Of a DNA stretch of 64,000 nt, positions 7,104 through 53,866 are shown one piece after another (the stretch's first letter is position 1; each line of letters opens with the position of its first letter). Origin of the DNA: Haloplanus sp. HW8-1 (lineage in GTDB: Archaea; Halobacteriota; Halobacteria; Halobacteriales; Haloferacaceae); contig NZ_CP098518.1 in assembly GCF_023703795.1 (NCBI RefSeq), positions 2,170,001-2,234,000 on the forward strand, given 5' to 3'. Made by a program: the position numbers and the translations under genes. The notes under the pieces are model-generated. The model had not been told where the DNA came from and did not search any database. It was given only the letters and a program-made list of their open reading frames with translations.

Positions 7104-7125
7104 GGCCAAACGAGTTCACGTCGAG

Positions 7126-7133: not shown

Positions 7134-7185
7134 CTTCACTGCGACGGACAGGGAAGGGGAATTTATCCGTTTTTCACATCTATCT

Positions 7186-7464: not shown

Positions 7465-7512
7465 TTCGCATCTCCAGTTGAGGATATCAGCAAGCCCTGG
7501 ATTCGTTCGGAT

Positions 7513-8200: not shown

Positions 8201-9289
8201 ATGATGGCCGGCAGAGACCTGGAACCGATCACCCCGGAAGACGCGATCGACTGGTACCTCGAACACCGTCGCGACGAACTCCGGACGGCGACCCGACGCA
8301 CGCATCGCTCCGCGCTCAACATCTTTCACAGCTGGACGGAAGAAGAGGATATCACCGATTTGAACGACCTCCGTGGGCGAGGTCTCGTGGCGTTCAAGAC
8401 TTGGCGCAAGTCCGAGACGGATATCAACACGGTCAGTCTGAACGGGACGCTCGCAGTCATCCAACGCTTCCTCCGGTTCTGTGAGACGATCGACGCCGTC
8501 GAGGAGGATCTGGCCGACCGCGTCCCACTGCCCAACGTACCTCCCAACGAGGAAGTCCGCACTGACGTCCCCGAGGACGAAGCCGTCGAAGGCATCCGAT
8601 CTTTCTACCACCGCTTCGAATACGCCTCTCGGCGCCACGCACAGTTCGAACTCGTGGCCGAGGTCGGCATCCGACTCGGGGCGCTTCGAGCGGTCGACCT
8701 TGACGACTTAGAGATGGACGAAGCCGTCATCCACCTCCAGCATCGCCCAGAATCGTCAGATGCGTACGGGACGCCGCTGAAGAACGGCGCGGACGGCGAG
8801 CGAATCATCAATATCCCGCCGGAGTTGGTGGATCTGCTTCAGGCCTACATCGACCACCATCGGCACGACGTGACTGACAAGTTCGACCGCGACCCGCTCT
8901 TCACGACGACGAACGGACGCATCTCGACGACCACCATTCGACGGGATTTCTACAAACTGAGTCGGCCATGTGAGTACGCGTCAGAGTGCCCCCACGATCG
9001 GGAGATTGCCGACTGCGACGCAGCACAGAACGCCGAGGCTGCCAATTGTCCTTCCTCGTTCAGTACGCATCCGCTTCGGAAGTGGGCTATCATGTCCCAG
9101 CTCGACGCCGGCCTGCCGAAGGAACTGCTTAGTGACCGTGTCGACGTGTCCGTGGCTGTGTTGGACAAGCACTACGACCAGCGAACCGAGGAACGGAAAT
9201 CACGGCGTCGGCGGGAAGCACTTGAAGCGAACATGTCGCAGTACGCTATGACGGATGGTGGTCAACTGCCGGACGACGGTGATAGCTGA
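8201..9289 (+). CDS. Tyrosine recombinase / XerC-D-like site-specific integrase
   Basis: The 362-residue product has an N-terminal SAM-like core-binding domain (about 10-110, with ITDLNDLRGRGLVAFKTWRK) and a catalytic domain. Box I is VGIRLGALRAVDL (about 155-167), HxxR is HPLRKW (290-293) and the nucleophile is in LDKHYDQ (Tyr about 325). A Cys-rich insert precedes HxxR (CEYASECPHDREIADCD...NCP), probably a zinc site common in haloarchaeal integrases. The histidine or tryptophan usual between HxxR and Tyr is replaced by LSDRVDVS. I chose the ATG at 8201 because a TATA-like tatttatc lies about 27 nt upstream; an in-frame TTG at 8165 would precede this signal. It is internal to the island, so it may belong to a nested element. 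Confidence 0.85.
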   Translation: MMAGRDLEPITPEDAIDWYLEHRRDELRTATRRTHRSALNIFHSWTEEEDITDLNDLRGRGLVAFKTWRKSETDINTVSLNGTLAVIQRFLRFCETIDAVEEDLADRVPLPNVPPNEEVRTDVPEDEAVEGIRSFYHRFEYASRRHAQFELVAEVGIRLGALRAVDLDDLEMDEAVIHLQHRPESSDAYGTPLKNGADGERIINIPPELVDLLQAYIDHHRHDVTDKFDRDPLFTTTNGRISTTTIRRDFYKLSRPCEYASECPHDREIADCDAAQNAEAANCPSSFSTHPLRKWAIMSQLDAGLPKELLSDRVDVSVAVLDKHYDQRTEERKSRRRREALEANMSQYAMTDGGQLPDDGDS

Positions 9290-9334
9290 TGTGATTTGCA
9301 TACTGGATGTAGAAGCGAAACGGCTTGGTGGTAT

Positions 9335-9875
9335 TTCATAATCGGTCTAGCAGCGTGAGGACGGCGCACACGGTGGCTCGAACGGATAGCGCCGACTATT
9401 GATTGTTCATAATCGGTCTGTACGCCCGCAAGAACAGGTCTACTTCCGAAATCAGCCTGCGTGTCTACCGGATCTGTGTTTCTGTGTGCGCATCCCAGAT
9501 GTTCAGCGAGCGGCGCGTAGCGCCCCGATTTCGGCCGTGTCGTCAACGCTTTTGAGGCCAGTCCGTTCGCGGTCCCGTCGGCTTTCCCATCGAATCGCCT
9601 GACAGCAACCGATTATGAAGCTCACACCGACTGTCTGGATGGTCGGTATCGTCTTGTTCGTTCCTCGCCACCCCCTGCTTTGCGGCCGTCTTATTCCGCA
9701 TACTGCTGCTTGGGAGCTTGCTGTGGCTGTTGGTCTCGTGGACCCATATTGGCGAGTTCTGGTCTGTGTGATTCTTTCTTACGGCGTCGGGCTCCGATTA
9801 TGATGGCTGTGAAACGGATCGATACGTGTTCAAATACTGTATTATAGGTTCTTACGCCCCAAATCCGATTATGAA
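9335..9875. repeat. Five-copy short repeat ttcataatcgg / ccgattatgaa
   Basis: Two forward copies of ttcataatcggtct (9335-9348, 9416-9429) are followed by three copies of the reverse complement: ccgattatgaa at 9609-9619, ccgattatga at 9794-9803 and ccgattatgaa at 9865-9875. The copies span about 540 nt in an otherwise gene-poor part of the island (9290-10135). The arrangement, two in one orientation and three in the other, could be terminal or regulatory repeats, or iterons. Confidence 0.6.
9615..9803 (+). pseudogene. Small membrane protein, probably frame-disrupted
   Basis: From the ATG at 9615, which lies inside one of the repeat copies, the frame begins MKLTPTVWMVGIVLFV, a good transmembrane start. 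It then turns less hydrophobic. The +1 frame from about 9664 continues LATPCFAAVLFRILLLGSLLWLL and ends at a TGA (9769-9771). Joining the two gives a plausible two-helix membrane protein, so a single frameshift is likely. The function is unknown. Confidence 0.3.
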
Positions 9876-9888
9876 AATTCAGTAAGAG

Positions 9889-10050
9889 CGATACTCTCGC
9901 AGCCTGTCTACGACTCAGCTGGGCTGCGAAGAATATCCAGTGTTCTCCGTCCTCTTCAGACGGCTGGAAGTCCCACTCATCAGTGACGGTGAAGCCAGCG
10001 TTCTGCAGATGCCTGCGTGTTGCATCCGCTCCGGCGATGCGCCACTGCTC
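9889..10050 (-). pseudogene. Remnant of an acidic protein-coding frame
   Basis: Reading from 10050 leftwards the minus strand encodes EQWRIAGADATRRHLQNAGF and then TVTDEWDFQPSEEDGEHWIF. This has the composition and regularity of a real haloarchaeal protein. There is a stop directly upstream (10051-10053) and no start codon in reach, and further downstream the frame loses coding character. It is probably the surviving fragment of a gene. Confidence 0.3.
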
Positions 10051-10135
10051 TCACGATACACCCGTTGTTCAGATTTTAGCTTATTTTTCAAGTAGAGAAC
10101 GAAGCACGTATACCCGGCCCTCACATATGTAAATC

Positions 10136-10465
10136 GTGGATAAAATCAACGTCACTGACATAGCGGATCAACTGGCCGAGGACGGGGAGATGGAAACCGA
10201 GGCAATGCGTGCAGTGTCGTTCAGCCTCCAAGTGATGCGGTTCGAGCCGGGCGACGAGGACCCGATGCACGCGCACGCTGAGGAAGAGATTTACCGTATC
10301 GACACGGGCGAGGCGACGCTCGTGACCGACGACGAGTCGGTGGAGGTGGAGCCGGGTGACGTTGTCCATCTCCGTCCTGGGACAGACCACCAGTTCACCG
10401 ATTTCGAGGGCGAGTTCGTGGTCACGGTTATGTACGCACCCGCCGAAGGCTCTCAGGCAACGTAA
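10136..10465 (+). CDS. Small single-domain cupin protein
   Basis: The 109-residue protein starts at a GTG and folds as a cupin_2 barrel. The metal-site motif 1 is EDPMHAHAEEEIYRIDTGEA, providing two His and a Glu, and motif 2 is PGDVVHLRPGTDHQF, providing the last His. Such single cupins bind a divalent metal and act as small isomerases, dioxygenases or sensors; the substrate cannot be told from the sequence. An AT-rich upstream segment (agcttatttttcaag, about 10078-10092) could hold the promoter. It is a stand-alone gene within the island. Confidence 0.8.
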   Translation: MDKINVTDIADQLAEDGEMETEAMRAVSFSLQVMRFEPGDEDPMHAHAEEEIYRIDTGEATLVTDDESVEVEPGDVVHLRPGTDHQFTDFEGEFVVTVMYAPAEGSQAT

Positions 10466-10710
10466 CAACAGGTCGCAGCTATACCTGTAGCCCCATTGAG
10501 TACGTCCCTCCAGCGTCGTCCCTAACGGCCAGTTCGATCCTATCTACCGAACCAGATCCAACGGTCTGCTGAGTACACCCTCTATACGCAGCACGGCAAG
10601 CGTGCCAAATAGCGTGAATTTCAACGGGTCTGCCTACTCCGATCGGTTGGAAACGGGGGTGAACTTGAGACCAACCTTGATATGTACACAAACCCATACA
10701 CAAAACACGG
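10466..10710. other. Intergenic region upstream of the VapBC pair
   Basis: I see no convincing gene. On the minus strand a frame ending just after 10479 reads SVDRIELAVRDDAGGTYSMG, which looks like the tail of a lost gene. Near the right end a TATA-like tgatatgt (10678-10685) lies about 29 nt before the VapB start. Confidence 0.4.
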
Positions 10711-10971
10711 ATGGCTTCGAAAAATATCGGTATCAAGGAGGAGGTCTACGAGCGGCTGAAAGCGCACAAACGCGGCGACGAGAGCTTCAGTGAGACGCTC
10801 GACCGCCTCCTCCACGAACTCGATTCCGATTGGCGGACCAACGCCGGGTTTCTCTCTCGTCAAGCGGCTGCCGACCTCGAAGCAGAGGTTGAGCGAGGCT
10901 TCGAGGACCTCGATGATGCGTTCGATGAACGCAGCGACGGCATCGACGAGCAGCTTTCAGGGGAATCGTGA
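10711..10971 (+). CDS. vapB: VapB-type antitoxin
   Basis: The 86-residue protein begins with a DNA-binding segment of RHH type (NIGIKEEVYERLKAHKRGDE SFSETLDRLL), typical of haloarchaeal VapB antitoxins. It ends in an acidic helical tail that would wrap around the toxin. Its stop overlaps the GTG start of vapC by 4 nt, so the two are translationally coupled. A TATA-like element 29 nt upstream suggests a leaderless message. Antitoxins of this kind usually repress their own operon together with the toxin. Confidence 0.82.
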   Translation: MASKNIGIKEEVYERLKAHKRGDESFSETLDRLLHELDSDWRTNAGFLSRQAAADLEAEVERGFEDLDDAFDERSDGIDEQLSGES

Positions 10972-11354
10972 AGCTCGTCGACGCGTCGTTTCTCATCGAC
11001 TACGCCCGAGGTGACGACGCCGCAATCGCGTATTTAGCTGCCCACGACGAGGAAGAGATCGGTGCATCGACCGTCGTCCTCTCCGAACTCTATCGCGGGT
11101 TGATGATCACCCAAGATATGACACAGGAGGAGGCGATGTCGAAGTACGAGTGGGTAGAGCCGGTACCGTTCACGAACGAAACGGCTGCAGAAGCCGCCGA
11201 AATCTACGTCGAACTCCGTGCCGACGGCGAACTGATCAACCGGAGCGACATCTACATCGCTGGAACTGCTCGCTCGCTCGGTGTGTCGCTGGTCGTGAAC
11301 GACAATCATTTCACTGCTATCGAGGACCTAGAAGTCGAGATGTACCGGGAATAA
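10968..11354 (+). CDS. vapC: VapC-type PIN-domain ribonuclease toxin
   Basis: The 128-residue PIN domain shows the acidic active-site set: Asp in MKLVDASFLIDYARGD, Glu in TVVLSELYRG, Asp in INRSDIYIAGTA and Asp in LVVNDNHF. VapC toxins are Mg-dependent RNases that cut tRNA or rRNA and are held inactive by VapB. It starts with a GTG that overlaps the end of vapB. The pair probably stabilises the island by post-segregational killing, which is an inference from location. Confidence 0.88.
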   Translation: MKLVDASFLIDYARGDDAAIAYLAAHDEEEIGASTVVLSELYRGLMITQDMTQEEAMSKYEWVEPVPFTNETAAEAAEIYVELRADGELINRSDIYIAGTARSLGVSLVVNDNHFTAIEDLEVEMYRE

Positions 11355-11495
11355 CCTCTTTTGATAGCATCTGGCTTCGTTGATTTCCCTGGTTGCTGAT
11401 AGTTCTCAGACGGTGTGCTACAGACGAGGGGTATCGTATTGTATTATTAGTGTATTCTAGTTTACACTCCACGATGACCGAGTGCTGCATCCGGG

Positions 11496-11532
11496 CTCTG
11501 TATTCAGCACGCGGGTCCTACCAGATACAGAG
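11496..11532. repeat. Inverted repeat in the vapC-integrase intergenic region
   Basis: An 8-bp perfect inverted repeat, ctctgtat (11496-11503) and atacagag (11525-11532), encloses a 21-nt loop. It lies between the convergent vapC and integrase genes (11355-11582, no gene seen). It could be a bidirectional terminator or the end of a decayed insertion sequence. Confidence 0.35.
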
Positions 11533-11582
11533 TGCCTCCGTACCACATACTAGCAAAAAATGGACCAGCTGCGCCGAGCGCC

Positions 11583-12581
11583 TCAGATATTTTCGAGATA
11601 CCCCCGTCGCTGCTCTAGTTTCACCTGCTCAGTCCGCTGGTCGTAATGCTTATCCAGCACGTCCCGACTCACGTTCATCCGGTCGCTCACTACCTCGACA
11701 GGAATATCCTGAGTCAGATAGTGGGTGATACTCCCCCGCCGAACCGCATGCGGATTCACGGCTTCGGGACACCGCTCCGAGAGACTCCCGGTACAGTCCG
11801 GGCAGGATTCGTTCCGGAAACACGGTGAGGTTACTTTGTACACGGTCCGGCGTATCGAAGCCCGGGACATTCGGCCATGAGAGGTCGTGAATAGCGGGTC
11901 ACGCCCGTGGTCGTCGGGGACATCCTTCCGGATTCTCTCGATGTAGGCGCCAAGAGCGTCGGCGAAATCGGCGGTGATGGCGATGGGCCGCTCACCACCG
12001 GACCCGTTTTTCAGCGTCGCCCCTTCGCTGGGCCTGTGGACGAGTTGTAACTGCTCTTCGGCGAGGTCGACGTCGTCGACGTCAAGTCCGTGAGCCGCGC
12101 CGATCCGCATTCCGGACTCCCAGAGGAGCCCCAGCATCGCGTGCTCGACTGAGGCGTAGTGGAAGGTCGACAGGTACTCTAGGATCTCCTTGGCCGTCTC
12201 GGCGTCGAGCGTCTCGTCGGCCTGCTGGTCGTCGGGTGAGACCCGCGGCACCATCACCTTGTCGTAGAGATTCTCCGGCACGGCTTCGATGGAGCCACAC
12301 CACTTGATGAAGACGCGCAACGAGCACATGTAGTTGTTGAGCGTCATGAGATTGATGTCGCCACTCTCCTTCCGCCAGAGCCGGAGGGCCTGGAGGTCAC
12401 GCCCCGTGAGGTCGTTCAGATTGTCGACGTCGTTCTCCTCGCACCACGCGACGAATTCGTTCGTGTGGTACCGATGATTGCGCACCGTCGACTCGGTGCA
12501 TTCGGTCTCCTTGTGGTCGAGGAACAGTTGCTGCGCGGTTCGAGGGTCGATCGGTTCTAGCTCGCTCTTTCGGGATTCCAT
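11583..12581 (-). CDS. Tyrosine recombinase, probable integrase of the tRNA-Val island
   Basis: From the ATG at 12581 the product has 332 residues. It has an N-terminal core-binding domain (NEFVAWCEENDVDNLNDLTG at about 41) and a catalytic domain with box I Arg in ESGMRIGAAHGLDVDD (159), HxxR as HAVRRG (278-281) and Tyr in LDKHYDQRTE (about 313). A Cys cluster (CFRNESCPDCTGSLSERCP) precedes HxxR, as in the 8201 recombinase, and may bind zinc. The gene lies at the right border of the island, 79 nt from attR. The frame stays open further upstream through attR to a GTG at 12674, but that extension would read the tRNA fragment, so I reject it. Confidence 0.87.
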   Translation of the reverse strand: MESRKSELEPIDPRTAQQLFLDHKETECTESTVRNHRYHTNEFVAWCEENDVDNLNDLTGRDLQALRLWRKESGDINLMTLNNYMCSLRVFIKWCGSIEAVPENLYDKVMVPRVSPDDQQADETLDAETAKEILEYLSTFHYASVEHAMLGLLWESGMRIGAAHGLDVDDVDLAEEQLQLVHRPSEGATLKNGSGGERPIAITADFADALGAYIERIRKDVPDDHGRDPLFTTSHGRMSRASIRRTVYKVTSPCFRNESCPDCTGSLSERCPEAVNPHAVRRGSITHYLTQDIPVEVVSDRMNVSRDVLDKHYDQRTEQVKLEQRRGYLENI

Positions 12582-12659
12582 GGTTATTCTGGAGTCCCGG
12601 TAGAAGGCTCGAAACGTCTGGAATCGGGCGCGAAGGGAACCAGCGAGGTCGGATCTCTT

Positions 12660-12673
12660 TCCGCCCCAACCCA
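12660..12673 (+). repeat. attR: copy of the tRNA-Val 3' end
   Basis: Exact 14-nt copy (tccgccccaaccca) of the tRNA-Val 3' terminus at 1614-1627, in the same orientation, with no other part of the tRNA present. Flanking bases differ on both sides. It marks the probable right end of the island. Confidence 0.6.
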
Positions 12674-12828
12674 CTCAGTTGCGTAACGCTCCTGAGTGAT
12701 AAGTGGGGTGTGAAGTGACCACACACTCGGACACCTCCCCTCTCTCCACGTACCTCCCTCCGAAGGTGTCGCTGTTCGTTCGACAGACATTTGGGCACTT
12801 ACTTGTCGCCGCCGTGAGTCGATCCGGT

Positions 12829-13629
12829 ATGGACCGTCGCTACGTGGTCGGCCTCGCCGTTGCACTCGTAGCAACCGGTATCGGCGCGCTCGCTTTCACG
12901 GCCGTCTGGTCTCCACACGCAACCGTGCCCGATTCCGACCGGCCGTATCCCGCAGGGGCAGGCCCACACCACATCAACTTCTCCGCGCTCGGGACGGACG
13001 ATACGAACGTTTCGCACACTCCTCGTGAGTACTGGGACTCGTACGCCATCGTCTACACCGCACCTCCCGAACGACGACTCGTGGAAGGGGATTATTACAT
13101 CGATTCCGCCACGGGGGCGATCATCGCCCAGCGCTGGCAGAACGCCACCGTGTATATCAACGGAACGACCTACGCGTTCGTCCAACCTGCCGACAGCATC
13201 CCGGAGCACCAACGCGAACAGTTCGCGTCGGATCCACAGTTCGTCTACGACGACACCACCGACGCGTACTACAGATACGATCCACACTACGGACAGATTG
13301 CCCCCACGAACATCGGTCGGCATACGATGATACTCGAAGCGTACGCGTGGGAGGCGACCGATACGACGACCCACCACGGCGTACCGGTTATCACGTACAG
13401 AGCAACCGGAACGCGTCCAGACTCCCAAGTCCCACCGACGATCGACGGAACGCTCCGACTCGGTGTCGAGGACGGCGTGGTATACGCGTTCGATCTCACG
13501 CTGGACGCGGGCGAGGAGACGTATCACTACACCTACGACGTGGCGCCCGCTCCATTCCCGGAGCATGAGTGGGTCGATACGGCACGGAATCTCGCTGCAA
13601 ACGCCACCGACAGCCGTTCCGAACAGTAA
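12829..13629 (+). CDS. Secreted or membrane-anchored haloarchaeal protein, unknown function
   Basis: The 266-residue product starts with a basic residue pair and one hydrophobic helix (MDRRYVVGLAVALVATGIGALAF), then a long extracellular, Asn/Thr/Tyr-rich domain (NATVYINGTTYAFVQPAD, HEWVDTARNLAAN) with probable beta structure and N-glycosylation sequons. It resembles the haloarchaeal membrane-anchored proteins that measure charge or bind polymers on the cell surface, but I cannot name the family. The ATG at 12829 is chosen because the signal helix starts there; the frame is open further upstream without coding character. It is the first chromosomal gene to the right of the island. Confidence 0.72.
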   Translation: MDRRYVVGLAVALVATGIGALAFTAVWSPHATVPDSDRPYPAGAGPHHINFSALGTDDTNVSHTPREYWDSYAIVYTAPPERRLVEGDYYIDSATGAIIAQRWQNATVYINGTTYAFVQPADSIPEHQREQFASDPQFVYDDTTDAYYRYDPHYGQIAPTNIGRHTMILEAYAWEATDTTTHHGVPVITYRATGTRPDSQVPPTIDGTLRLGVEDGVVYAFDLTLDAGEETYHYTYDVAPAPFPEHEWVDTARNLAANATDSRSEQ

Positions 13630-13716
13630 CACTCCGACCGACTTGATGGCACCGTGCCACGTCCGCGGGAGCGTCTCTTCCCCCCGGAGCGGTTCTCCGA
13701 CCGTCCGCCGGGGCCC

Positions 13717-14598
13717 TTACCGATTCGTGATCCGAGACCGGAACTGCGGTCGTCCTTCGACTCCCAAATCCGTCGCCAGTAGTGCGCCTGCGGCGCGTCC
13801 CAGTTCGGCCTTCGAACGTCGCTCGTAGTAGCCGAGCCCCGTCGTAACGTACGCGGTCTCGTAGTTCTCACCGCCGAAGGTCAGGCTGGCAACCGTCTCT
13901 GCGGGACAGGAAACTTTCTCGACGACCGTGCCCGAGTCGTCGTATCGGACCAGTTGTCCACCGTTCCACTCCGCCGACCAGACGTGTCCGGTCGTGTCGA
14001 CGGCGAGCCCATCCGGAAGGCCATCACCGTGGTCGACTTCGGCGAACACGGTTCGATCGGAGAGTTGCCCGGACGTCTCCTCGTAGGCGTACCGTCGGAT
14101 GCGATTCGCCTTCGATTCCGTGAGATACAGCGCGTCCCGTTCGGTCGTGAACCCAAGTCCATTCGGGAGGGCCAGATCGTCGATCAGGCGGTGATACGTC
14201 CCATCGGGGTCGAGACGGTAGAGCCGGCCCGGATGACGGTCCGTCGGCATCGTCCCGGCGAACACGCGCCCGGCGGGATCGGCGATGACGTCATTGAAGC
14301 GGGTGTCGGCCTCCTCGGTGATGTCGAGGACGGGGGTGGCGTCCCACGTCTCCGTGTCGAGGCGACGAACGACGCCACCGTCTTCGAACAGTAACAGGCT
14401 GCCGTCCGCTTCCACCGTGATACCGGCGATGAGGTCGGACTCGAACACGTGAGCGTGTTCGTCCGTCTCCGGCCGATATCGAAACAACGAGCCTGCGGGG
14501 ACGTCGATCCAGTAAAGCGCCTCGTCGTCGGGGTGCCAGATCGGCCCCTCCGCTACCTGGCAGCCGTAGTCGGCGACGACCGTAATGTCGTGACTCAC
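13717..14598 (-). CDS. SMP-30/gluconolactonase/LRE family protein
   Basis: The 293-residue six-bladed beta-propeller has the SMP-30 signature: the metal-binding Glu in QVAEGPIWHPDD, Asn in DTRFNDVIADPAGR, then LPNGLGFTTERDALYLTES, and Asp in LPDGLAVDTTGHVW. Family members are Ca/Zn-dependent lactonases that open sugar lactones such as gluconolactone or arabinonolactone. It lies downstream of, and in the same direction as, a double cupin and an HpcH-type aldolase, which suggests a sugar-acid or related catabolic pathway. The substrate is not known. Confidence 0.85.
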   Translation of the reverse strand: MSHDITVVADYGCQVAEGPIWHPDDEALYWIDVPAGSLFRYRPETDEHAHVFESDLIAGITVEADGSLLLFEDGGVVRRLDTETWDATPVLDITEEADTRFNDVIADPAGRVFAGTMPTDRHPGRLYRLDPDGTYHRLIDDLALPNGLGFTTERDALYLTESKANRIRRYAYEETSGQLSDRTVFAEVDHGDGLPDGLAVDTTGHVWSAEWNGGQLVRYDDSGTVVEKVSCPAETVASLTFGGENYETAYVTTGLGYYERRSKAELGRAAGALLATDLGVEGRPQFRSRITNR

Positions 14599-14761
14599 GC
14601 TTGGAACCGCATATCGCCACGGTGTTGAATCTCCTGCACGGCCTTCCGGCGATGGACGCCGTCGTCGGCCCGGGGTCGGGGCCGTCGAGTCCCCGAGGAG
14701 GGTTCACAGGCGGACCGTCGCCACCGCTCCGTTCCTGTCGGTCGGCGCGGTCATCCGATCG

Positions 14762-15853
14762 CTATTCGAGGGAGACCTCGATGTCGGGTGGCAGCGGCAG
14801 TCCGCGTTGCTTGCGTGCTGCCATCGCTCGACGGAACTCCTCTCGGATCCGGGGTCGCTCCGACGTCTCCAGTTCGTCGATGTCGAACTCGCCTTCCTTG
14901 CCTCCCTTCGACACCCACGCGGCCATCCAGACCCGCTCGGTGCCGGTGTTTCCGACCGTGTGCATACAGCCGGTCGGGAAGAACGCACAGTCGAACTGAC
15001 GCATCGTGACGTCTCGGTACTCGGTCTGAAGGCGGGCCTCGCCGTTCAATACCCAGTAGATCTCCTCCGTCGGCCCCTCGTTCTCGAAGTGGCCGTGAAA
15101 CCCGATGTACGACCCCGGGTCCAGTCGGATGACGACGCTCTGTGAGATCCAGTTGCTGTCCGGAAACGCGTAAATCCAATCCGGACGATCGTCGGTGGCG
15201 GCGATCTCCGGCGTCGCGATGAACATCTTGGGCCGGGTCTCGGCGAATCGCGAAATCGACGGCTCCGGACGTCCGTCGTCGGGGTCGCCCTCGTACGCGC
15301 CGCGGTCAGGCGGCGTCGCGAGACCGCGTTCCGACCGGGCGGCGTGTATCCGCTCGTACTCCTCCCGGGCGCCCGGTCGGTCCACGGGTTCGAGGGCCGA
15401 AGCCTCGGCGAGTTCGTGGTCGCCGACGGACGCCCACCAGCCGAGCCACAGCGTGTCCGTCCCGGTGTTACCCAACTGGTACGCCGTACTCGGAGGCAGG
15501 AGGACGGAGTCGAACCGCTCCAGTGGCTCGTCGGCGCGTTCCGTCCGGAGGACACCTCGCCCCGAAAAGACGGTCAGACACTTCTCGTACGGACCCTCGA
15601 CGGACTCCCGGTGTGACTGGAAGTCGGTGTACTCGCCCGGTTCCAGCTTCAACAGCCCGCCGTCGTCGAACCACCGCGAGGAGTCGTACCCGTACTCCCA
15701 CGACAGGTAGTCGGTGTCCGCGCCGATCGGTGAGGCCTCGTGTCTCGTGGGACGCAGATCCTCGAACCGGACGACGGTTGCCTCCGGGGACTGATTCTCG
15801 AAGGGATCGCCGCTGAACTCGATATCCATATGATACCGTTCAGACACATCCAC
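14762..15853 (-). CDS. Double cupin-domain protein
   Basis: The 363-residue protein contains two related cupin barrels, about residues 50-150 and 215-320. The second has GSYIGFHGHFENEGPTEEIYWVLNGEA and CAFFPTGCMHTVGN, which give the usual metal-binding His/Glu/His set. The first barrel has GEYTDFQSHRESVEGPYEKC and SVLLPPSTAYQLGN, where the final His is replaced, so it is probably structural. A TATA-like taatac is centred about 27 nt upstream of a GTG at 15853; an ATG at 15829 is the alternative start. The position between a lactonase and an aldolase suggests a role as isomerase or dioxygenase of the same pathway. Confidence 0.75.
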   Translation of the reverse strand: MDVSERYHMDIEFSGDPFENQSPEATVVRFEDLRPTRHEASPIGADTDYLSWEYGYDSSRWFDDGGLLKLEPGEYTDFQSHRESVEGPYEKCLTVFSGRGVLRTERADEPLERFDSVLLPPSTAYQLGNTGTDTLWLGWWASVGDHELAEASALEPVDRPGAREEYERIHAARSERGLATPPDRGAYEGDPDDGRPEPSISRFAETRPKMFIATPEIAATDDRPDWIYAFPDSNWISQSVVIRLDPGSYIGFHGHFENEGPTEEIYWVLNGEARLQTEYRDVTMRQFDCAFFPTGCMHTVGNTGTERVWMAAWVSKGGKEGEFDIDELETSERPRIREEFRRAMAARKQRGLPLPPDIEVSLE

Positions 15854-44281: not shown

Positions 44282-44737
44282 TTACTGTGGCGCGGTGGCG
44301 CGGGCGATGGTGTTGGTGCTACCGCCGTTCGGGTTGGTCCAGACGACGCGGATCGTCTCGCCGCTGTTGACCTTCTCGAAGGAGATCCGGTCCCCCGCCG
44401 AGACCACGTCGTCGTCGCCCCAGTTCGAATCGTTGGCGACGTACGACAGGGAGTTGGTGCCGTCGCCGCTGACGGACAGCGTCGAGTTCTCGATCGTCTC
44501 GCCACCCTCGTGGGTGATGTTGACGACGTCGTTCGCGTTCCCGCCGAATCCGTCGCCGCCGTCGGCGAAGTCGAAGCTGAAGCTGGCTTGCGGTGCGCTG
44601 TCACTGACCTGATCGCCCAGACCGAGGACGAAGGTGCCGATGACGGCGGCCAGAATGACGGTGATGGCTACCATCAGGATGACGCCGATGACCGGACTGA
44701 CGGCACGGTCGTCCGTGAGCAGTTGGTTGAAGTTCAT
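44282..44737 (-). CDS. Type IV pilin, paralogue 1
   Basis: The 151-residue protein begins [19 protein letters not shown] and continues [20 protein letters not shown], an archaeal class III prepilin signal: cleavage by the prepilin peptidase after DDR would leave AVSPVIG at the start of the mature hydrophobic helix. The C-terminal domain is a beta sandwich of the archaeal pilin/DUF1628 type. It shares its N-terminus and the C-terminal [13 protein letters not shown] with two paralogues upstream, but the middle differs (SGDGTNSLSYVANDSNWGDD). The promoter block lies 96 nt upstream. It serves adhesion or biofilm pili by family knowledge. Confidence 0.92.
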   Translation of the reverse strand: MNFNQLLTDDRAVSPVIGVILMVAITVILAAVIGTFVLGLGDQVSDSAPQASFSFDFADGGDGFGGNANDVVNITHEGGETIENSTLSVSGDGTNSLSYVANDSNWGDDDVVSAGDRISFEKVNSGETIRVVWTNPNGGSTNTIARATAPQ

Positions 44738-44832
44738 GGTTGCGTGGCACGCCGAGCCGGAGCCGGGGGGATCGCTGCTCCCGCACGGGCACACATCGAC
44801 GTGTCGTGGTCGTGAATCGAACCGGCGCCGAA

Positions 44833-44855
44833 ATAAATCAATCGGCCAATTATCA
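44833..44855 (-). promoter_or_regulatory. Conserved promoter block of pilin 1
   Basis: On the minus strand this 23-nt block contains TGATAATTGG and TTGATTTAT. The TATA-like ATTTAT would put the transcript start about 70 nt before the ATG. The same block stands 94-96 nt before all three pilin genes. Confidence 0.6.
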
Positions 44856-44939
44856 TGGGAGATACTCTATTCGGCCGTCACGTCGAAGACTGGCGTATCC
44901 ACTCGCCGTCGGCCGGGCAAAAAACGAGTCGCGGACGGA

Positions 44940-45365
44940 TTACTGCGGTGCGGTGGCGCGGGCGATGGTGTTGGTGCTGCCGCCGGCGGGGTTGGTCCAG
45001 ATGACGCGGATCGTCTCGCCGCCGTCGACCCCGCTGTACTCGGCCGTGCTGCCCGCGTCGATGGGATCACTGAACGGAGTCGTGGCGCTCACGCCGTTCG
45101 GACCCCCGGTTGCGGTGTCGTCACCGGAGACGTTGATGTTCCCACTTTCGAGCGTTTCGCCGCCCTCGTGGGTGAGGGTCACGTTGCCACTGTCGAAGTC
45201 GAAACTGAAGCTAGCTTGCGGTGCGCTCTCGCTGACCTGATCGCCCAGACCGAGGACGAAGGTGCCGATGACGGCGGCCAGAATGACGGTGATGGCTACC
45301 ATCAGGATGACGCCGATGACCGGACTGACGGCACGGTCGTCCGTGAGCAGTTGGTTGAAGTTCAT
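44940..45365 (-). CDS. Type IV pilin, paralogue 2
   Basis: The 141-residue protein has the same N-terminus as paralogue 1 ([19 protein letters not shown]) up to residue about 55 and the same C-terminus, but a different centre ([20 protein letters not shown]). The gene is a tandem copy with its own promoter block at 45460-45482. The 5' leader is nearly identical to that of paralogue 1 for about 55 nt before the ATG. Confidence 0.92.
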
Positions 45366-45459
45366 GGTTGCGTGGCACGCCGAGCCGGAGCCGGGGGGAT
45401 CGCTGCTCCCGCACGGACACGCGTCGACGTGTGTGATCGTCGATGGGGTGGGAATAGGG

Positions 45460-45482
45460 ATAAATCAACTGGCCAGTTATCA
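45460..45482 (-). promoter_or_regulatory. Conserved promoter block of pilin 2
   Basis: The minus strand contains TGATAACTGG and TTGATTTAT, 95 nt upstream of the ATG; spacing and sequence match the other two copies. Confidence 0.6.
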
Positions 45483-45561
45483 CACAAGATATTTTATTCG
45501 GATGTCACTCCGAAGTCTCTCGGTTCGGTGTTCGAAAAAACGAACCGCGAAGCGCGGTGGT

Positions 45562-45981
45562 TTACTGCGGTGCGGTGGCGCGGGCGATGGTGTTGGTGCT
45601 GCCACCGGCGGGGTTGGTCCAGATGACGCGGATCGTCTCGCCGTTCTGGACGTCACCGTACGTGGCTGAATCCCCTGCTTGGATCGTGGATGTGAAGCCG
45701 GTCCCCGTCAGTCCGGAGCCCTCGTCACCGGTCGCGTTGATGTTCCCGCTTTCGAGCGTCTCACCACCTTCGTGGGTGATGGTGACGTTGCCCGGACTGT
45801 TCGTCATGTTGAAGTCGAAGCTGAAGCTAGCTTGCGGTGCGCTCTCGCTGACCTGGTCGCCCAGGCCGAGGACGAAGGTGCCGATGACGGCGGCGAGGAT
45901 GACGGTGATGGCCACCATCAGGATGACGCCGATGACCGGGCTGACCGCCCGGTCGTCCGTCAGTAGTTGTTTGACGTTCAT
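45562..45981 (-). CDS. Type IV pilin, paralogue 3
   Basis: The 139-residue protein starts [19 protein letters not shown] with the same class III signal and ends in the same [17 protein letters not shown] tail. The middle is different again ([20 protein letters not shown]). Its leader before the ATG is diverged compared with copies 1 and 2, and the second codon differs (MNVKQ rather than MNFNQ), so it is the most distant copy. Confidence 0.92.
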
Positions 45982-46074
45982 GATTGTGGTGACACGCCGG
46001 GCCGGAGCCGGGGGGAAGCCGCTCCCGCACGGACACGCGTCGACGTGCTCGGTGGAGAGTCGGAGCCGCGACTG

Positions 46075-46097
46075 ATAAATCAACCGCCCAATTATCA
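46075..46097 (-). promoter_or_regulatory. Conserved promoter block of pilin 3
   Basis: The minus strand contains TGATAATTGG and TTGATTTAT, 94 nt upstream of the ATG at 45981. Confidence 0.6.
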
Positions 46098-46171
46098 ACC
46101 AATATAATCGAACGCGGATGACGGCGTCGGCCACCGCCCGCAGTGACGCCGATCACGCCGCACTCGGCCGA

Positions 46172-48007: not shown

Positions 48008-48011
48008 GGTT

Positions 48012-48027
48012 ACCAGAACTTCAGGTT
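48012..48027 (+). repeat. Left attachment site of the sdh element
   Basis: accagaacttcaggtt, the remnant of the sdhB 3' end next to the sdhA start. It matches 52170-52185 at 15 of 16 positions, with the last 11 nt identical. Confidence 0.75.
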
Positions 48028-48044
48028 TTGAGCTGCTGAACTTT

Positions 48045-48055
48045 GCATAACATCT
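48045..48055 (+). repeat. Left subterminal inverted repeat
   Basis: gcataacatct, the inverted partner of agacgttatgc at 52147-52157 (10 of 11 bases pair). It lies 17 nt inside the attachment core and overlaps the presumed divergent promoters of the integrase and sdhA. Confidence 0.5.
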
Positions 48056-48081
48056 TTCCTATTATCCCGTGAAGGGCAATC

Positions 48082-49380
48082 ATGGCCCGACGCGGGGACG
48101 ATCCGTCTCACAAGTACGCGAAAGAACGGGAACGGATTAAAGACTCGGAATTGTCGGACTCCGACACACAGGCAATATTACGGTTCTTGTCAGCGTTTGA
48201 CGACAATGACCTATCACAGTCGTACACAAATGAACGGGGTGAGACTGAAACTCTGTCGTACAACTCGCTCGAAAGCTACGGGCGATCTATGCGATTGATT
48301 GCCAAAGAGTCCGACCGTGATCTACTCGATCATAGTCTCAATTCCCTTGGGTCGGTCTTTAGCACCTTCTTGGATAATTTGGCCGTCGAGACGGTGCGAC
48401 AGCGTCAGGCAGGTGCGACGAAATTCTATAGATTTCACGATACCGAGATTGACCCAGATGAAATCCCCCTGCAAAAGCGTGAGAATGATACTTCCGTTGA
48501 TGAACGGGATATGTTCACCCGTGAAGAAGTCCAACGGATGCGGGATGCCTGTGATAATGCACGGGACAGGTGCCTGATTGAACTTCTACTGTATACGGGA
48601 CAACGTATCCGTGCTATTCAGACGCTCCGACTGAAGGATATTGATCTTGAAGAAAACGTTTACTACCTCAATACTGACGAATTAGGGCTGAAAGGTGCGG
48701 ATAAGACGGGAAAGAAGCGTCCATTACTTGGTGCGACGAACGCTGTTCGAGATTGGGTCAACAAACATCCGACTGGGGAACGAGACGACTATCTGATTAC
48801 GTCGCTCCCCTCAGCAAGCAATACCGAGGGTGACGGCGAATATCTCTCTGCCCCCGCTATCCGATACCGACTCAAGAAGATTGTAGAGCGGGCGGAAGTG
48901 GACAAGCCCTTTCATGCCCACAATTGGCGGCATTATTTTGTCACGGTTTGTATCAGGGATTACGACATGGACCCGTCGGTTGTGAAGTTCCTAATCGGGC
49001 ATGATGAAGACTCGTCCGTGATGGAAACGACATACCAGCATTTGACTGACGAGGATTACATTGACGCTGCCCGCCGATCCGCTGACGCGGGGCGTGACCC
49101 CCAACAACGAGAAAGCGCCCTGACGCCCGACACCTGCCCGACTTGCGACGAGCCTCAGCCACCAAATGCAAAGGCGTGTTCAAACTGTGGGACTGTCTTC
49201 ACCCCCGATGCACAGCAGGCGAAACAGCAAGTTGAGGATGTCGTCCACGAGGGAGCGAAGCAAGCCGACTCCGATGCGGAACGTGAGGCTATTGATGCTA
49301 TTCGTGAGTATGTGAAAGAGAATCCAGAGGTGGCCGTCGAGAACCCCGAGTTAGTCGACAAACTCCTTGGTGACGAGTAA
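48082..49380 (+). CDS. Tyrosine recombinase with C-terminal zinc ribbon (element integrase)
   Basis: The 432-residue protein has an N-terminal core-binding domain (SYNSLESYGRSMRLIAKESD), then the catalytic domain: box I Arg in LYTGQRIRAIQTLRLKDIDL (about 175), HNWR (280-283), a conserved His in FLIGHDEDSS (307) and the nucleophile Tyr in METTYQHLTDEDY (318). A four-Cys zinc ribbon follows (CPTCDEPQPPNAKACSNCG, 352-369) and then a helical acidic tail. This class is common in haloarchaeal viruses and integrative plasmids. It is unlike the 8201 and 12581 recombinases, which lack the ribbon. Codon use is less GC-biased than in the flanking sdh genes. Confidence 0.93.
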   Translation: MARRGDDPSHKYAKERERIKDSELSDSDTQAILRFLSAFDDNDLSQSYTNERGETETLSYNSLESYGRSMRLIAKESDRDLLDHSLNSLGSVFSTFLDNLAVETVRQRQAGATKFYRFHDTEIDPDEIPLQKRENDTSVDERDMFTREEVQRMRDACDNARDRCLIELLLYTGQRIRAIQTLRLKDIDLEENVYYLNTDELGLKGADKTGKKRPLLGATNAVRDWVNKHPTGERDDYLITSLPSASNTEGDGEYLSAPAIRYRLKKIVERAEVDKPFHAHNWRHYFVTVCIRDYDMDPSVVKFLIGHDEDSSVMETTYQHLTDEDYIDAARRSADAGRDPQQRESALTPDTCPTCDEPQPPNAKACSNCGTVFTPDAQQAKQQVEDVVHEGAKQADSDAEREAIDAIREYVKENPEVAVENPELVDKLLGDE

Positions 49381-49400
49381 CCTCGATCACCGAAACCCCC

Positions 49401-49541
49401 TCAATCGGCAACGACGCCGTCCGTCGTTTCGTCCGCCACGGGAAACTCCCCCTCGTGGCGGAGGATCAGACGGGCAACGTCGGCGGCGGGGTTGTCGGCA
49501 TTGTCGAGGATTCGCAAGTGGTAGTGTGTTACCTTAGTCAT
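49401..49541 (-). CDS. Small element-encoded protein
   Basis: A 46-residue frame from ATG at 49541: MTKVTHYHLRILDNADNPAA, then a helix with DVARLILRHEGEFPVADETT. The composition and acidity are typical of haloarchaeal proteins and the codons are GC3-rich, in contrast to the surrounding AT-rich DNA. It lies convergent with the integrase, 20 nt from its stop. Function unknown. Confidence 0.55.
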   Translation of the reverse strand: MTKVTHYHLRILDNADNPAADVARLILRHEGEFPVADETTDGVVAD

Positions 49542-50195
49542 GGTTTTCGCTCGGTGCGGCGGCGTGACCCGCTCGCCCGAGAAATGCTTTCCACTTGCGT
49601 CTGTGAATTTGGCTGTCCAGTATAAAAATATCAGGGACGGGACGGAGATTCACGGATCGAAACCCCAAGGATCGACGCGGGGATAGCCCATACGCACGTG
49701 CGTAAAATGAAACGGCGGTAAACATATAATAATAATACTCTGGTTAATGTGAGCATCATCACTTCGGAGTCATTTGTTTTCAAATATATCTTCTCCTCCA
49801 GATGAACAGGTGTAGAGTGTAATATGGAAGTGGGAGTATATTATTAACCCGGCACAGCGCGGGCGGGCGCACATGCACGATAGGGGCAGATTCCTTAGAG
49901 GGTCTCCGACTCTCTTTCACCAGACGATACGAAAGCACACAGTCCGTCTGTAATGGTACGACGTTGCCCAACATATACCAATTTCAGAGCCTTGAGGCCA
50001 TAGATGATGTTTCCCCCTTCCTCCACTCGTTGAGGTTCTGAAAATGCATATGAGGGCCGCTGTGAAATCACACGTACCATATTCAGACACTCAGACACTG
50101 ACCGCAAGTGGCGAGTGGGAGGAACGGCGAGAGAAAGGTCAGAGATACAGGACATGAAGCAAAATCATACGTGACTGGACTATTATATCCTGCAT
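49542..50195. other. AT-rich spacer of the sdh element
   Basis: About 650 nt with low GC and no convincing gene. Short minus-strand frames (for example 49534-49725 and 49895-50155) exist, but their composition is rich in Ser, Arg and His and unlike haloarchaeal proteins. tataaaaatatcagg (49622-49636) and taatataataa-like runs (49727-49738) may be promoters. The region could include an origin or small RNA. Confidence 0.4.
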
Positions 50196-50732
50196 ATGGT
50201 CCCAATAACACGAGAAGGGAGAATCGAGTGGATTCGGAGGAATCTAATCCCTTTACTTGATTCTCAACTCAGTGATCACCCCGACAAAGAACTTGACGAA
50301 GAGAGTATTAATACGAGTGAAAAAATATTAGCTGAAGAATATTTGGACGAAGGTAGTGGTATCTTTAAGACATTTGGCAAAGTGACACTACCGATGATAA
50401 TTATAGATTCCGTCTCTTATATGCCCCCTCAAGTCTATGGTCTCGTATTCAGTACGTTGGGTACTTTCATAATGCTTGTAGAAGCGGACATTCTGGGAAG
50501 TGAACCAATCACCGCTCAGTCTATGGATACTGTGGGTGGGCCAACTGGTGGAAAAGAATACCTTGATGAAGAGAAGGTGAGACGGTTAGCGAATAATACA
50601 GTAATCACGAATATCGGCCTTGTTTGGCTATTTTTTGGATTCACCATGCAGATAATAGCTGTGTGGGCAATTTCGTCCGAAACATTAATACAACCAATCT
50701 GGTATATCAATCCTCTATTCTGGTTAAGTTAG
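50196..50732 (+). CDS. Element-encoded membrane protein
   Basis: The 178-residue protein has a soluble N-terminal part (REGRIEWIRRNLIPLLDSQL, ELDEESINTSEKILAEEYLD) followed by hydrophobic segments (TLPMIIIDSVSYMPPQVYGL, FSTLGTFIMLVEADI, IGLVWLFFGFTMQIIAVWAI). This makes two or three membrane helices with an acidic cytoplasmic domain. The AT-rich codon use sets it apart from the chromosome. No homologue comes to mind; it could be a membrane-acting accessory factor, which is inference. Confidence 0.65.
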   Translation: MVPITREGRIEWIRRNLIPLLDSQLSDHPDKELDEESINTSEKILAEEYLDEGSGIFKTFGKVTLPMIIIDSVSYMPPQVYGLVFSTLGTFIMLVEADILGSEPITAQSMDTVGGPTGGKEYLDEEKVRRLANNTVITNIGLVWLFFGFTMQIIAVWAISSETLIQPIWYINPLFWLS

Positions 50733-50748
50733 CAAGGGTCATCTCCAT

Positions 50749-51201
50749 TTAGCCGACATGTACTGTGAATTCGTCGTAGTTCCACAATCCCCGAATATAA
50801 TTACGCGTCTTTACAGCCTGTAATTTAGAAGCTTGATCGAAAGCCGTTTCGGAGGATAGAGGTAGCCCATGCAGTATCATGATTGGATTCGTCCAGATAT
50901 TTTTGGTATCAATCTCTACACCCTGATCCCCTCCCCCGTGTTCTGACACTTCCAATACGCCTCTAATCGTGATACCCCATGTCTCTACCCTTTGTTCGAC
51001 TTGGGGATATGAAAATACTATCAAATAATCGATATACGCCGTGAGGCCTGATATGAAGTGTGTGCCCGCCGTTTGGTCAATCGTGATGTCCGAAAGCACG
51101 GGCGCCACGAGCGAGACGCACGACTTCGCAACCGTCATTACCGACATAGACGCCGAGAGCAAGCACGTAATACGGAACAATGCACGTAGCCTTTCGCCCA
51201 C
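50749..51201 (-). CDS. Hypothetical protein of the sdh element, start uncertain
   Basis: The 3' two thirds (about 50749-51050) encodes a plausible protein: AYIDYLIVFSYPQVEQRVET, VEIDTKNIWTNPIMILHGLP and LQAVKTRNYIRGLWNYDEFT. The 5' third overlaps the opposite-strand gene at 51086 and has less coding character, so the real start may lie near 51050 or the gene may be 5'-truncated. No motif recognised. Confidence 0.4.
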   Translation of the reverse strand: MGERLRALFRITCLLSASMSVMTVAKSCVSLVAPVLSDITIDQTAGTHFISGLTAYIDYLIVFSYPQVEQRVETWGITIRGVLEVSEHGGGDQGVEIDTKNIWTNPIMILHGLPLSSETAFDQASKLQAVKTRNYIRGLWNYDEFTVHVG

Positions 51202-51442
51202 CGATGACGCCGTCGAGGATCACACAGGCGACTTGGCTACACTTACGGATACGTCACTGTCGTCAATGCTGTTCAACGCGACAGTCGACGACGTCCACGG
51301 TATCCCCGACGACACCGTCACTGTCGTGTTCTCCAAAGGAGTTGAGTTTCCCGAGGGCGACGGCTACATGACGTTCAAGGTGACGGCTGATACCGAGACG
51401 CGAGACGTGAAGTCGATGACGGTCAACGCGAGACTCTATTGA
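51086..51442 (+). CDS. Acidic hypothetical protein of the sdh element
   Basis: The 118-residue protein from ATG 51086 begins MSESTGATSETHDFATVITD and continues with SSMLFNATVDDVHGIPDDTV, GVEFPEGDGYMTFKVTADTE and a final VKSMTVNARLY. Its acidity and GC-rich codons point to a real haloarchaeal gene. The predicted strands suggest a small beta-rich domain. No family recognised. Confidence 0.6.
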   Translation: MSESTGATSETHDFATVITDIDAESKHVIRNNARSLSPTDDAVEDHTGDLATLTDTSLSSMLFNATVDDVHGIPDDTVTVVFSKGVEFPEGDGYMTFKVTADTETRDVKSMTVNARLY

Positions 51443-51814
51443 TCGATTAGTAACGAACCCGTCAGAGAAGTCTCAGAGCGGTTCGAGTGTTGGGACGATG
51501 TTTCCCCTTGGTTCCTTTCACGCATCGGAAATTGTGGTGAGAAGCTAACTTGCACAGTAATTTTCAGGGGACTCTGTCGGATGGGAGCCTTCGGGGTAGG
51601 TGATCCCGTATTTTGCCATCCTTCAGAAGGGACACTTTGTTTGGTTACAAGTTGTAGTACCAGATTCACAGATAACAATTTTTGTTTGGGTAAGTGATAC
51701 CAGAACTCCATTGGCCGCCCCATATTTCACGGTGGAATACACGGAATTTGGGAAACCTATCACATTTTCCGAGAGGAAATAGGGAGGAACTGCCGAGTAG
51801 CATCGTAAGAGACG
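51443..51814. other. Intergenic region with a possible short gene
   Basis: The region is AT-rich. A 60-codon plus-strand frame (51600-51782, GTG start) reads HFVWLQVVVPDSQITIFVWV and FTVEYTEFGKPITFSERK, which could be a fragment of a beta-rich protein. Nothing else is seen. Confidence 0.35.
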
Positions 51815-52078
51815 CTACGGTAGAAGGTCATGAACGGAGGGGCCGAGTCCTAACCCAAGTAGTAGTAGTGCGACAATCATCATTGTCACTAACTCCCGCC
51901 CAGGAAAGACACCGCTCAATGAGAGACTGTGGGGAAGGTTAGCCAAGATCATAACAAGTGTGACTGAGGCTATCGAAAAGACGCCAATCGCTTTCAGTAC
52001 CTCGTTACTCATACCTACTGGTAAGACCCGATGACTTGTCAGTGTAGCGCCGTCTTTAAACTCGGTCATGACAGTCAC
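51815..52078 (-). CDS. Small two-helix membrane protein of the sdh element
   Basis: The 87-residue frame contains two transmembrane helices: IGVFSIASVTLVMILANLPH and LVTMMIVALLLLGLGLGPSV. The first 22 residues (MTVMTEFKDGATLTSHRVLP) may be leader; an internal ATG at 52012 (MSNEVLKAIGVFSIASVT) with a preceding aggt is an equally good start. It lies at the right end of the element, 90 nt from the sdhB stop, reading the same way as sdhB. Confidence 0.55.
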   Translation of the reverse strand: MTVMTEFKDGATLTSHRVLPVGMSNEVLKAIGVFSIASVTLVMILANLPHSLSLSGVFPGRELVTMMIVALLLLGLGLGPSVHDLLP

Positions 52079-52146
52079 GTCACCCTGCGGCGTAGCCGTC
52101 GAAGCCTCTGACTGTCCATGTCACTCCTTCAGCCTAATAAAAGACG

Positions 52147-52157
52147 AGACGTTATGC
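52147..52157 (+). repeat. Right subterminal inverted repeat
   Basis: agacgttatgc, inverted relative to gcataacatct at 48045-48055. It lies 12 nt inside the right attachment core. Confidence 0.5.
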
Positions 52158-52167
52158 TAAGGCAGCC

Positions 52168-53061
52168 TCACCAAAACTTCAGGTTGCTCTTGACCGCTTC
52201 GCGTTTCAGTTCCTGGATGTGCTCGGTCAGGGGAATGTCCTTCGGACAGACCTCCGTACAGGAGAACTGGGTCTGACACCGCCAGACGCCGTGTTCCTGT
52301 TCGATGATCTCCAGGCGCCGCTGTTTCATGTCCTCGCCCTCCCGCTCGTCCATCGCGAAGCGGTAGGCCTTGTTGATTGCCGCCGGGCCGAGATACTCGT
52401 TGTCGCCCGCCGCGATGTTACAGGAGGACATACACGCGCCACACCAGATACACCGCGTCGAGGTCTTGATCTTCTCGCGGTTCTCCCGGCTCTGGCGCTG
52501 TTCTTCCAGTTCCCCGTCCGGGCGGTCGGTCGTCTGGAAGTACGGTTCGACCGACTCCATCTGGTCGTAGAAGTGCTCCATGTCCACGACTAGGTCTTTC
52601 ACCACCTCTTGGTGGGGGAGCGGTTCGATCCGGACCGGCCGATCGAGGTCCGAAAGTTGGGTCTGACAGCCGAGGCGCTGCCGACCGTTGATGAACAGCG
52701 CGTCCGAGCCACAGATCGCCTGTCGGCAGGAGTGTCGGAACGTGAGGCTGGCGTCGAACTCGTCGCGCGCGTAGATGAGCGCGTCCAGCACCGTCATCCC
52801 CGTCTCGTAGGGCACGTGGAAGTCGTCGAAGCGGGGCTCCTGTTTCCCCTCGACCTCGGGGTCGTAGCGGAACACTTTCAGATGGTAGCGCTCCGCGTCC
52901 GCCTCGGCGCGTTCGGCCTCCTCGATCCGCTTTCGCTCGCGCTCCTCGGCGCGCTGGCGTTTCTCGTCGAGGCGGCGGTCCCGTGACGATTCGGCCACTG
53001 CGTCGGCGTCGGTTTCCGTGCTCTGCGTCTCGGTCTCGGGTTCGGGTCGTTGCGTACTCAT
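52168..53061 (-). CDS. sdhB: Succinate dehydrogenase iron-sulfur subunit
   Basis: The 297-residue protein carries the three clusters: [2Fe-2S] with CRQAICGSDALFINGRQRLGC, where Asp replaces one Cys as in Escherichia coli; [4Fe-4S] with CIWCGACMSSC; and [3Fe-4S] with CQTQFSCTEVCPKDIP. An N-terminal highly charged extension (about 50 residues of Glu/Arg-rich coil) is a haloarchaeal feature. It overlaps sdhD by 4 nt. The C-terminal codons for NLKFW and the stop are supplied by the mobile element (see 52170-52185); TGA replaces the probable ancestral TAA. Confidence 0.97.
   Translation of the reverse strand: MSTQRPEPETETQSTETDADAVAESSRDRRLDEKRQRAEERERKRIEEAERAEADAERYHLKVFRYDPEVEGKQEPRFDDFHVPYETGMTVLDALIYARDEFDASLTFRHSCRQAICGSDALFINGRQRLGCQTQLSDLDRPVRIEPLPHQEVVKDLVVDMEHFYDQMESVEPYFQTTDRPDGELEEQRQSRENREKIKTSTRCIWCGACMSSCNIAAGDNEYLGPAAINKAYRFAMDEREGEDMKQRRLEIIEQEHGVWRCQTQFSCTEVCPKDIPLTEHIQELKREAVKSNLKFW
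52170..52185 (+). repeat. Right attachment site inside the sdhB 3' end
   Basis: accaaaacttcaggtt, which encodes the last residues NLKFW of SdhB on the minus strand. It matches 48012-48027 at 15 of 16 positions. Confidence 0.75.
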
Positions 53062-53438
53062 AGTATCGGGAGGAGGTCGATGCCCGCCCAGGCGTTCGCG
53101 GTCCGGAAGCCCTGCACGAGGAGAAGCAGGCTCGCGACGACGAGGACGGCCTTGACGACCTGTCGTTTGGTCCCCGTCAGCCCGGCGTTGATCAGGGCGT
53201 TGTAGACGCCGTTGACGCCGTGGAACGTCGCGGTCACCAGAAAGAGGACCATCAGCGAGTAGTAACTCCAAGTCTCCATCCGGTTGGCGCTCATGAGGAA
53301 GGTCACCTCGTCGGCGTGGTGGACGAAATGGAGGAGGAAAAAGTGGAAGGCGAGCACCACGATCAGGAAGGCGGCGGTGATCCGCTGCCAGAGCCACAGA
53401 CGCCCGCCTGCGGTAAAGGAGGAGTAGCGCTCGGCCAT
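53058..53438 (-). CDS. sdhD: Succinate dehydrogenase membrane anchor subunit D
   Basis: The 126-residue protein starts [25 protein letters not shown] and has three membrane helices. LHFVHHADEVTFL lies in the loop after helix I and TATFHGVNGVYNAL in helix II, providing candidate haem or quinone-site histidines. It overlaps sdhB (4 nt, ATGA) and sdhC (1 nt), so the subunits are translated together. Confidence 0.93.
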   Translation of the reverse strand: MAERYSSFTAGGRLWLWQRITAAFLIVVLAFHFFLLHFVHHADEVTFLMSANRMETWSYYSLMVLFLVTATFHGVNGVYNALINAGLTGTKRQVVKAVLVVASLLLLVQGFRTANAWAGIDLLPIL

Positions 53439-53866
53439 CAGAGCGACACCCCCGCGAGGAAGGTGGGGACGCTCGCGACGACGATGGCGCCCGTCAGGAT
53501 CAGCGACGCGTAGAAGGCTCGATCCTGTGATTCGAGGCCGATCCCCAGATCGACCAGCAGTAGCCGGCTCCCGTTGAGGATGTGGAACACGGCCACCGCC
53601 AGCAGTCCGACCTCGAGGATGCGAACCACCAGCAGGCTCTCCAGCGTCCGGATGGTCTGCGTGTAGAGATCCTGGTTCGCCGCGACCGTCGCGGGATCGG
53701 CGCTCGCAGACGTGAGTGCTGTACTCAGCACCGCCACGTGAGTGAACAGATATCCGACCAGCACCCACCCCGTGAACTTATGGAAGATCCAGGCCCACAT
53801 TCCCGCCGAGAACTCCCGCCACCGGCCGAAGTCCTCGATGAGGCCCCGATCATAGGACTGACTCAT
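53438..53866 (-). CDS. sdhC: Succinate dehydrogenase cytochrome b subunit C
   Basis: The 142-residue protein is the first gene of the operon. It contains [20 protein letters not shown] in helix I, with His candidates for haem, a helix [27 protein letters not shown], and a last helix [15 protein letters not shown]. It anchors SdhAB in the membrane and binds quinone. Upstream of its start is a short spacer to the next operon (53867-53964), which should hold the sdh promoter. Confidence 0.93.

Follow-up and report, generated by a model that had tools for sequence, protein, structure and literature searches.

Which promoter serves sdhA when a mobile element lies between this gene and the rest of its operon? 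The question arises in a 64,000-nucleotide stretch of haloarchaeal DNA (the window) from a host genome of 3.84 Mb in 3 contigs. The initial annotation placed 74 nt between the divergent starts of sdhA (48007, minus strand) and an integrase gene (48082, plus strand), as the coordinates confirm, and proposed that sdhA is driven from this spacer, i.e. from the end of the element itself.

Aerobic growth requires succinate dehydrogenase. A genome search identified one match for sdhA, its own, and the reading frame of the gene is intact. As judged from dN/dS values of 0.08–0.14 relative to element-free congeners (0.07–0.10 for element-free pairs among themselves), sdhA is under purifying selection, although most of this signal could predate the insertion. 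Being single-copy, intact and under purifying selection, sdhA must therefore be expressed. Directly downstream of it, three tandem paralogous pilin-like ORFs are found (44282–46134, minus strand). The features of the locus are collected in Table 1.

Table 1. Features of the sdh locus and of the inserted element (window coordinates)
Feature	Position	Strand	Basis or score
sdhA, succinate dehydrogenase flavoprotein subunit, 611 aa	46172-48007	-	Pfam FAD_binding_2 + Succ_DH_flav_C, NCBIfam TIGR01812
attL core, native sdhB 3' end, sense AACCTGAAGTTCTGGTAA, stop codon 2 nt from sdhA ATG	48010-48027	-	matches junction in 11/11 element-free congeners
Mini-ORF, 12 codons, in frame, MQSSAAQNLKFW then stop, from within arm repeat to old sdhB stop	48010-48048	-	read from sequence
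Integrative element between the two core copies, ~4.14 kb, 50% G+C, integrase + small ORFs	48028-52167		
Candidate sdhA promoter GAAAGATGTTATGCA, BRE GAAA + TATA-like GTTATG	48044-48058	-	6.26 bits
Left arm of terminal inverted repeat, GCATAAC, probable integrase-binding site (predicted)	48045-48051	+	partner 52151-52157
Candidate leaderless integrase promoter ATAACATCTTTCCTA	48047-48061	+	6.29 bits
Tyrosine recombinase (integrase), 432 aa, C-terminal zinc ribbon	48082-49380	+	Pfam Phage_integrase PF00589, 5.8e-23
Alternative candidate sdhA promoter CCGAGTCTTTAATCC, antisense in integrase 5' end, start ~105 nt before sdhA	48134-48148	-	7.13 bits
Right arm of terminal inverted repeat, GTTATGC	52151-52157	+	
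attR core, element-supplied sdhB end, sense AACCTGAAGTTTTGGTGA, restores Lys-Phe-Trp-stop	52168-52185	-	
sdhB, iron-sulfur subunit, 301 aa, reading frame restored	52168-53073	-	Pfam Fer2_3 + Fer4, NF004616
sdhD + sdhC, membrane-anchor subunits, operon start	53058-53405 + 53438-53866	-	Pfam Sdh_cyt

The element and its insertion site

The element is absent from the sdhB–sdhA junction in the other sampled genomes of the genus (11/11), all of which have an sdhB gene ending in ...TTC/TTT-TGG-TAA, 2–3 nt before the sdhA ATG. The ancestral junction, sdhB-TAA-CC-ATG-sdhA, leaves no room for an intergenic promoter, which upholds the premise that the element cuts sdhA off from sdhCDB. Since the congeners carry the sdhB tail at this very place, the left core is native and the right core was brought by the element. 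The two cores form a direct repeat that is exact over 11 bp (48017–48027 and 52175–52185) and matches at 16 of 18 bp overall. The target gene is restored: sdhB regains its Lys-Phe-Trp-stop ending via TTTTGGTGA, which each of the four related elements (see below) carries at its sdhB side, while sdhA is displaced by ~4.16 kb from sdhB. Two marks of an archaeal integrative element were thus found: att direct repeats flanking it, and relatives in which the site is empty. From this comparison, the element separates sdhA from sdhCDB and splits the sdhCDBA operon; the locus is a precise, recurrent operon split with a proven empty site. The small ORFs that form the cargo (window positions 50196–52078) gave no informative family match in profile searches.

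The ends of the element also bear on the inverted repeat that had been reported at 48045–48055 in the spacer. No internal repeat exists there: the longest perfect inverted match within the spacer is 5 nt, and the sequence in question is a single arm, GCATAAC (48045–48051), whose partner, GTTATGC, is found at the opposite end of the element. A match of this kind between the arms arises with P ~0.05 when the two ends are shuffled. The sdhA-side arm (GTTATGC/GCATAAC) is identical in the four elements, whereas the sdhB-side arm varies (TTAGCATAAC, TTAGAAAAAC, TTAGAATAAC and CTAACATAAC); this constancy at one side and not the other is a weak hint of an extra constraint on the sdhA side, in a sample of four elements of which two have near-identical left ends.

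Note that, in each of the four elements, an ATG inside the GTTATGC arm opens a mini-ORF that extends in frame to the old sdhB stop. The attL core of one of them, G013, has lost 3 nt, a deletion that leaves the mini-ORF frame intact. Translational (stop–start) coupling of this mini-ORF to sdhA is possible, with the proviso that chance alone yields such shared frames fairly often.

Relatives of the integrase

The integrase looks intact, as judged from its sequence: R175, H280, R283, H307 and Y318, the conserved catalytic residues, are invariant in the four-member alignment. Among the 170 family genomes searched, integrases of this clade occur in four only: the present one, G013, G095 and G099. 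They are 63–69% identical and form one clade with a support of 0.999. In the three relatives, the gene lies between sdhB and sdhA and is divergent from sdhA, the same layout as here, and the other integrase relatives (at most 52% identity) fall outside the clade, beside other genes. That the closest relatives occupy the same junction argues that the sdhB/sdhA junction is a site-specific, recurrent target. The hosts of the three relatives belong to two other genera, so that the four hosts represent three genera; the other sampled members of these genera lack the element, a distribution in keeping with repeated integration at a specific site. For G095, the junction could be read against the empty locus L066: its Lys codon (AAG) derives from the element and its Phe codon (TTC) from the host, so that the crossover falls at the TT between the two. 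The cargo differs between the relatives, with an IS5-type transposase in G013, a weakly nuclease-like ORF in G095 and nothing obvious beyond the integrase in G099.

In other sequence collections, an IMG/VR search with the integrase recovered no related elements, a plasmid search gave no match, genome contigs yielded distant matches only, and phage relatives did not exceed 34% identity. Two further haloarchaeal families (146 and 26 genomes) and an order-wide sample outside this family contained no integrase as close as those of the sdhB-site clade. The wider haloarchaeal integrase family (L002–L036 and L103) adjoins various protein-coding genes and, by eye, subclades of the integrase tree share a flanking gene, as if each had one target.

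Separation of sdhA from sdhB also has other forms. The two genes are more than 700 nt apart, or unlinked (G009), in 13 of the ~145 sampled family genomes that have both. The detached sdhA genes of G033, G053, G035, G118, G031, three g24 genomes and G009 were not counted as cases of the same element because a repeated att core from the sdhB tail was not seen in the eight inspected ones with sdhB in the locus. The detached gene of G118 has a strong promoter-like site (8.7 bits) in front of it; in G031 (L092, ~1530–15160), the gap amounts to 13.8 kb and its ORFs resemble, by eye, a gas-vesicle (gvp) cluster. In L053, L054, L056, L063, L065 and L067, the sdhB tail is repeated imperfectly (e.g. AACCCTGAAGTTC) ~15 nt past the sdhB stop, possibly as the scar of an old integration.

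Candidate promoters in the spacer

The spacer has a G+C content of 43%, compared to 68% for sdhA and 64% for the window. Both AT-rich strings singled out by the initial annotation as possible TATA signals are present, each one base away from the place given: TTATGCAAAG occupies 48041–48050 and ATAATAG 48059–48065 (both on the minus strand). Promoters were predicted with a model obtained by unsupervised training on 220 gene starts from intergenic regions of this genome, the training DNA consisting of 17 sampled 20-kb stretches and the window. The trained pattern (an A-rich BRE at -34/-33, TTTAT at -30 to -26 and AT at -11/-10) agrees with published haloarchaeal motifs (PMC4983044).

In the spacer, the model points to a candidate sdhA promoter with a predicted start at ~48021–48022 and a leader of ~15 nt. 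Its score of 6.26 bits corresponds to the 57th percentile of intergenic starts in this genome and exceeds 98% of operon-internal starts. It overlaps by 12 bp the candidate integrase promoter on the other strand as well as the integrase repeat; the idea that the same bases serve both directions is thus borne out at the level of predicted sites. Dinucleotide shuffles of the spacer reached the sdhA-strand score 48% of the time and the integrase-strand score (6.29 bits) 55% of the time, so that the base composition of an AT-rich spacer is enough to account for the TATA-like strings. The proposal that the spacer drives sdhA is therefore retained in part: a promoter-like site of typical strength is there, but it is no better than a shuffled spacer (P = 0.48) and an antisense candidate within the integrase gene scores higher (7.13 bits).

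At the homologous position, the relatives score 5.7 bits (G013 and G095) and 7.3 bits (G099), giving a range of 5.7–7.3 bits over the four elements. A promoter conserved beyond the arm was considered and rejected: only GTTATGC is clearly common to the four left ends. Integrase binding, and not a role as TATA box, may be the reason for the conservation of this motif. Leaders of 6–20 nt are rare in Haloferax (PMC4983044), which counts against a ~15-nt sdhA leader.

Transcription of sdhA

We tentatively favor, as the most likely explanation of the locus and with somewhat less than even confidence, a start of sdhA transcription in the spacer, at the left end of the element, where the predicted promoter overlaps the integrase promoter and repeat. 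A deeper promoter of the element, antisense inside the integrase gene, could act instead of the spacer. The candidate found there exceeds the spacer site, and the site at the corresponding place in G099 reaches 9.8 bits; yet it is missing in G013 and G095, where the best score upstream of the arm is 2.3–2.7 bits, chance gives such a score in 14% of windows of the AT-rich element, and antisense transcription would oppose integrase expression. We regard this source as rather doubtful.

The operon could also still function as one unit, with transcripts initiated at the sdhC promoter crossing sdhB and the full length of the element before reaching sdhA. The sense strand has only two runs of at least five T over 4.1 kb and the element is short in two relatives (1.8 and 2.2 kb), both of which would ease read-through; here, however, it demands 4.2 kb of transcription (4.8 kb in G013), mostly as antisense RNA across the integrase gene, and a CTTTTATT stretch ~30 nt past the new sdhB stop could end transcripts, making read-through unlikely. 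A further reading, which we consider very improbable, is a reversible switch in which the integrated element keeps sdhA off and only excision allows its expression. SpyCIM1 and mutL provide a precedent for it (PMC3430984, PMC4689407), the integrase appears intact with its catalytic residues conserved, and the core repeats match at both ends. However, the 3-nt loss in the attL core of G013 would be expected to impede excision, and sdhA is nevertheless intact in that genome; moreover, the aerobic need for succinate dehydrogenase speaks against a silent sdhA.

Returning to the spacer start, we propose the following scheme. A tyrosine-recombinase element has integrated site-specifically into the last codons of sdhB and, as the comparison of loci shows, has rebuilt sdhB with its own synonymous tail while splitting the sdhCDBA operon. 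Cut from the operon promoter, sdhA would start in the 74-nt spacer at a weak-to-average BRE/TATA, with a short leader beginning within the old sdhB tail. As this site overlaps the likely promoter of the integrase as well as the integrase repeat, both promoters would be in competition, and integrase, once bound, could shut them both off; excision would return sdhA to the operon promoter. A broader version, which we hold to be quite unlikely, is that of a haloarchaeal element clade specialised on the sdhB/sdhA junction, in which one short stretch would bind integrase as an arm and would also hold the integrase promoter and an outward promoter for sdhA, tying together integrase level, excision and succinate dehydrogenase synthesis.

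Integrases that target the 3' end of genes are usually thought harmless because the target is rebuilt. When the target lies inside a tight operon, the cost falls on the next gene, in this case sdhA, which encodes a single-copy subunit of a central respiratory enzyme. A spacer promoter that would meet this cost is plausible but unproven. Related species with and without the element form natural pairs for asking how archaea balance subunits after an operon has been cut, and whether outward promoters are the price that mobile elements pay for their site.

Comparison with known systems

No published report of sdhB as the target of an element was found in the open-licence literature searched, but the kind of element is already known. 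Thaumarchaeal NitEve-E2 resides in the 3'-distal part of a protein gene and provides a new frame end with a different stop codon (PMC6563490), and Halorubrum virus BJ1 is integrated in an HMG-CoA reductase gene (PMC8371274). Like them, the present element is of the integrase type and sits in a protein-coding gene, whose frame end it rebuilds as NitEve-E2 does; unlike them, it targets sdhB, and the downstream sdhA loses its operon promoter. Helper-embedded PICI satellites in lambda-like late genes also have one integrase clade with one gene target per subclade, and change the expression of the interrupted gene in cis (PMC10111431). The shared trait is an integrase clade that keeps to one gene target; the genes interrupted there are bacterial prophage genes, whereas the present element splits a respiratory operon of the cell and leaves its target gene intact.

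The closest precedent is that of the SpyCI islands of S. pyogenes (SpyCIM1, SpyCIM5), which sit between mutS and mutL; in SpyCIM5 a promoter within int rescues mutL (PMC3430984). There as here, an integrase-bearing element splits a host operon and the downstream gene loses the operon promoter. The SpyCI islands, however, belong to bacteria, with unrelated hosts and genes, and insert at the 5' end of mutL, whereas the present element enters the 3' end of sdhB and leaves sdhA untouched; excision and rescue were measured for SpyCI, while in the sdh locus both are deduced.
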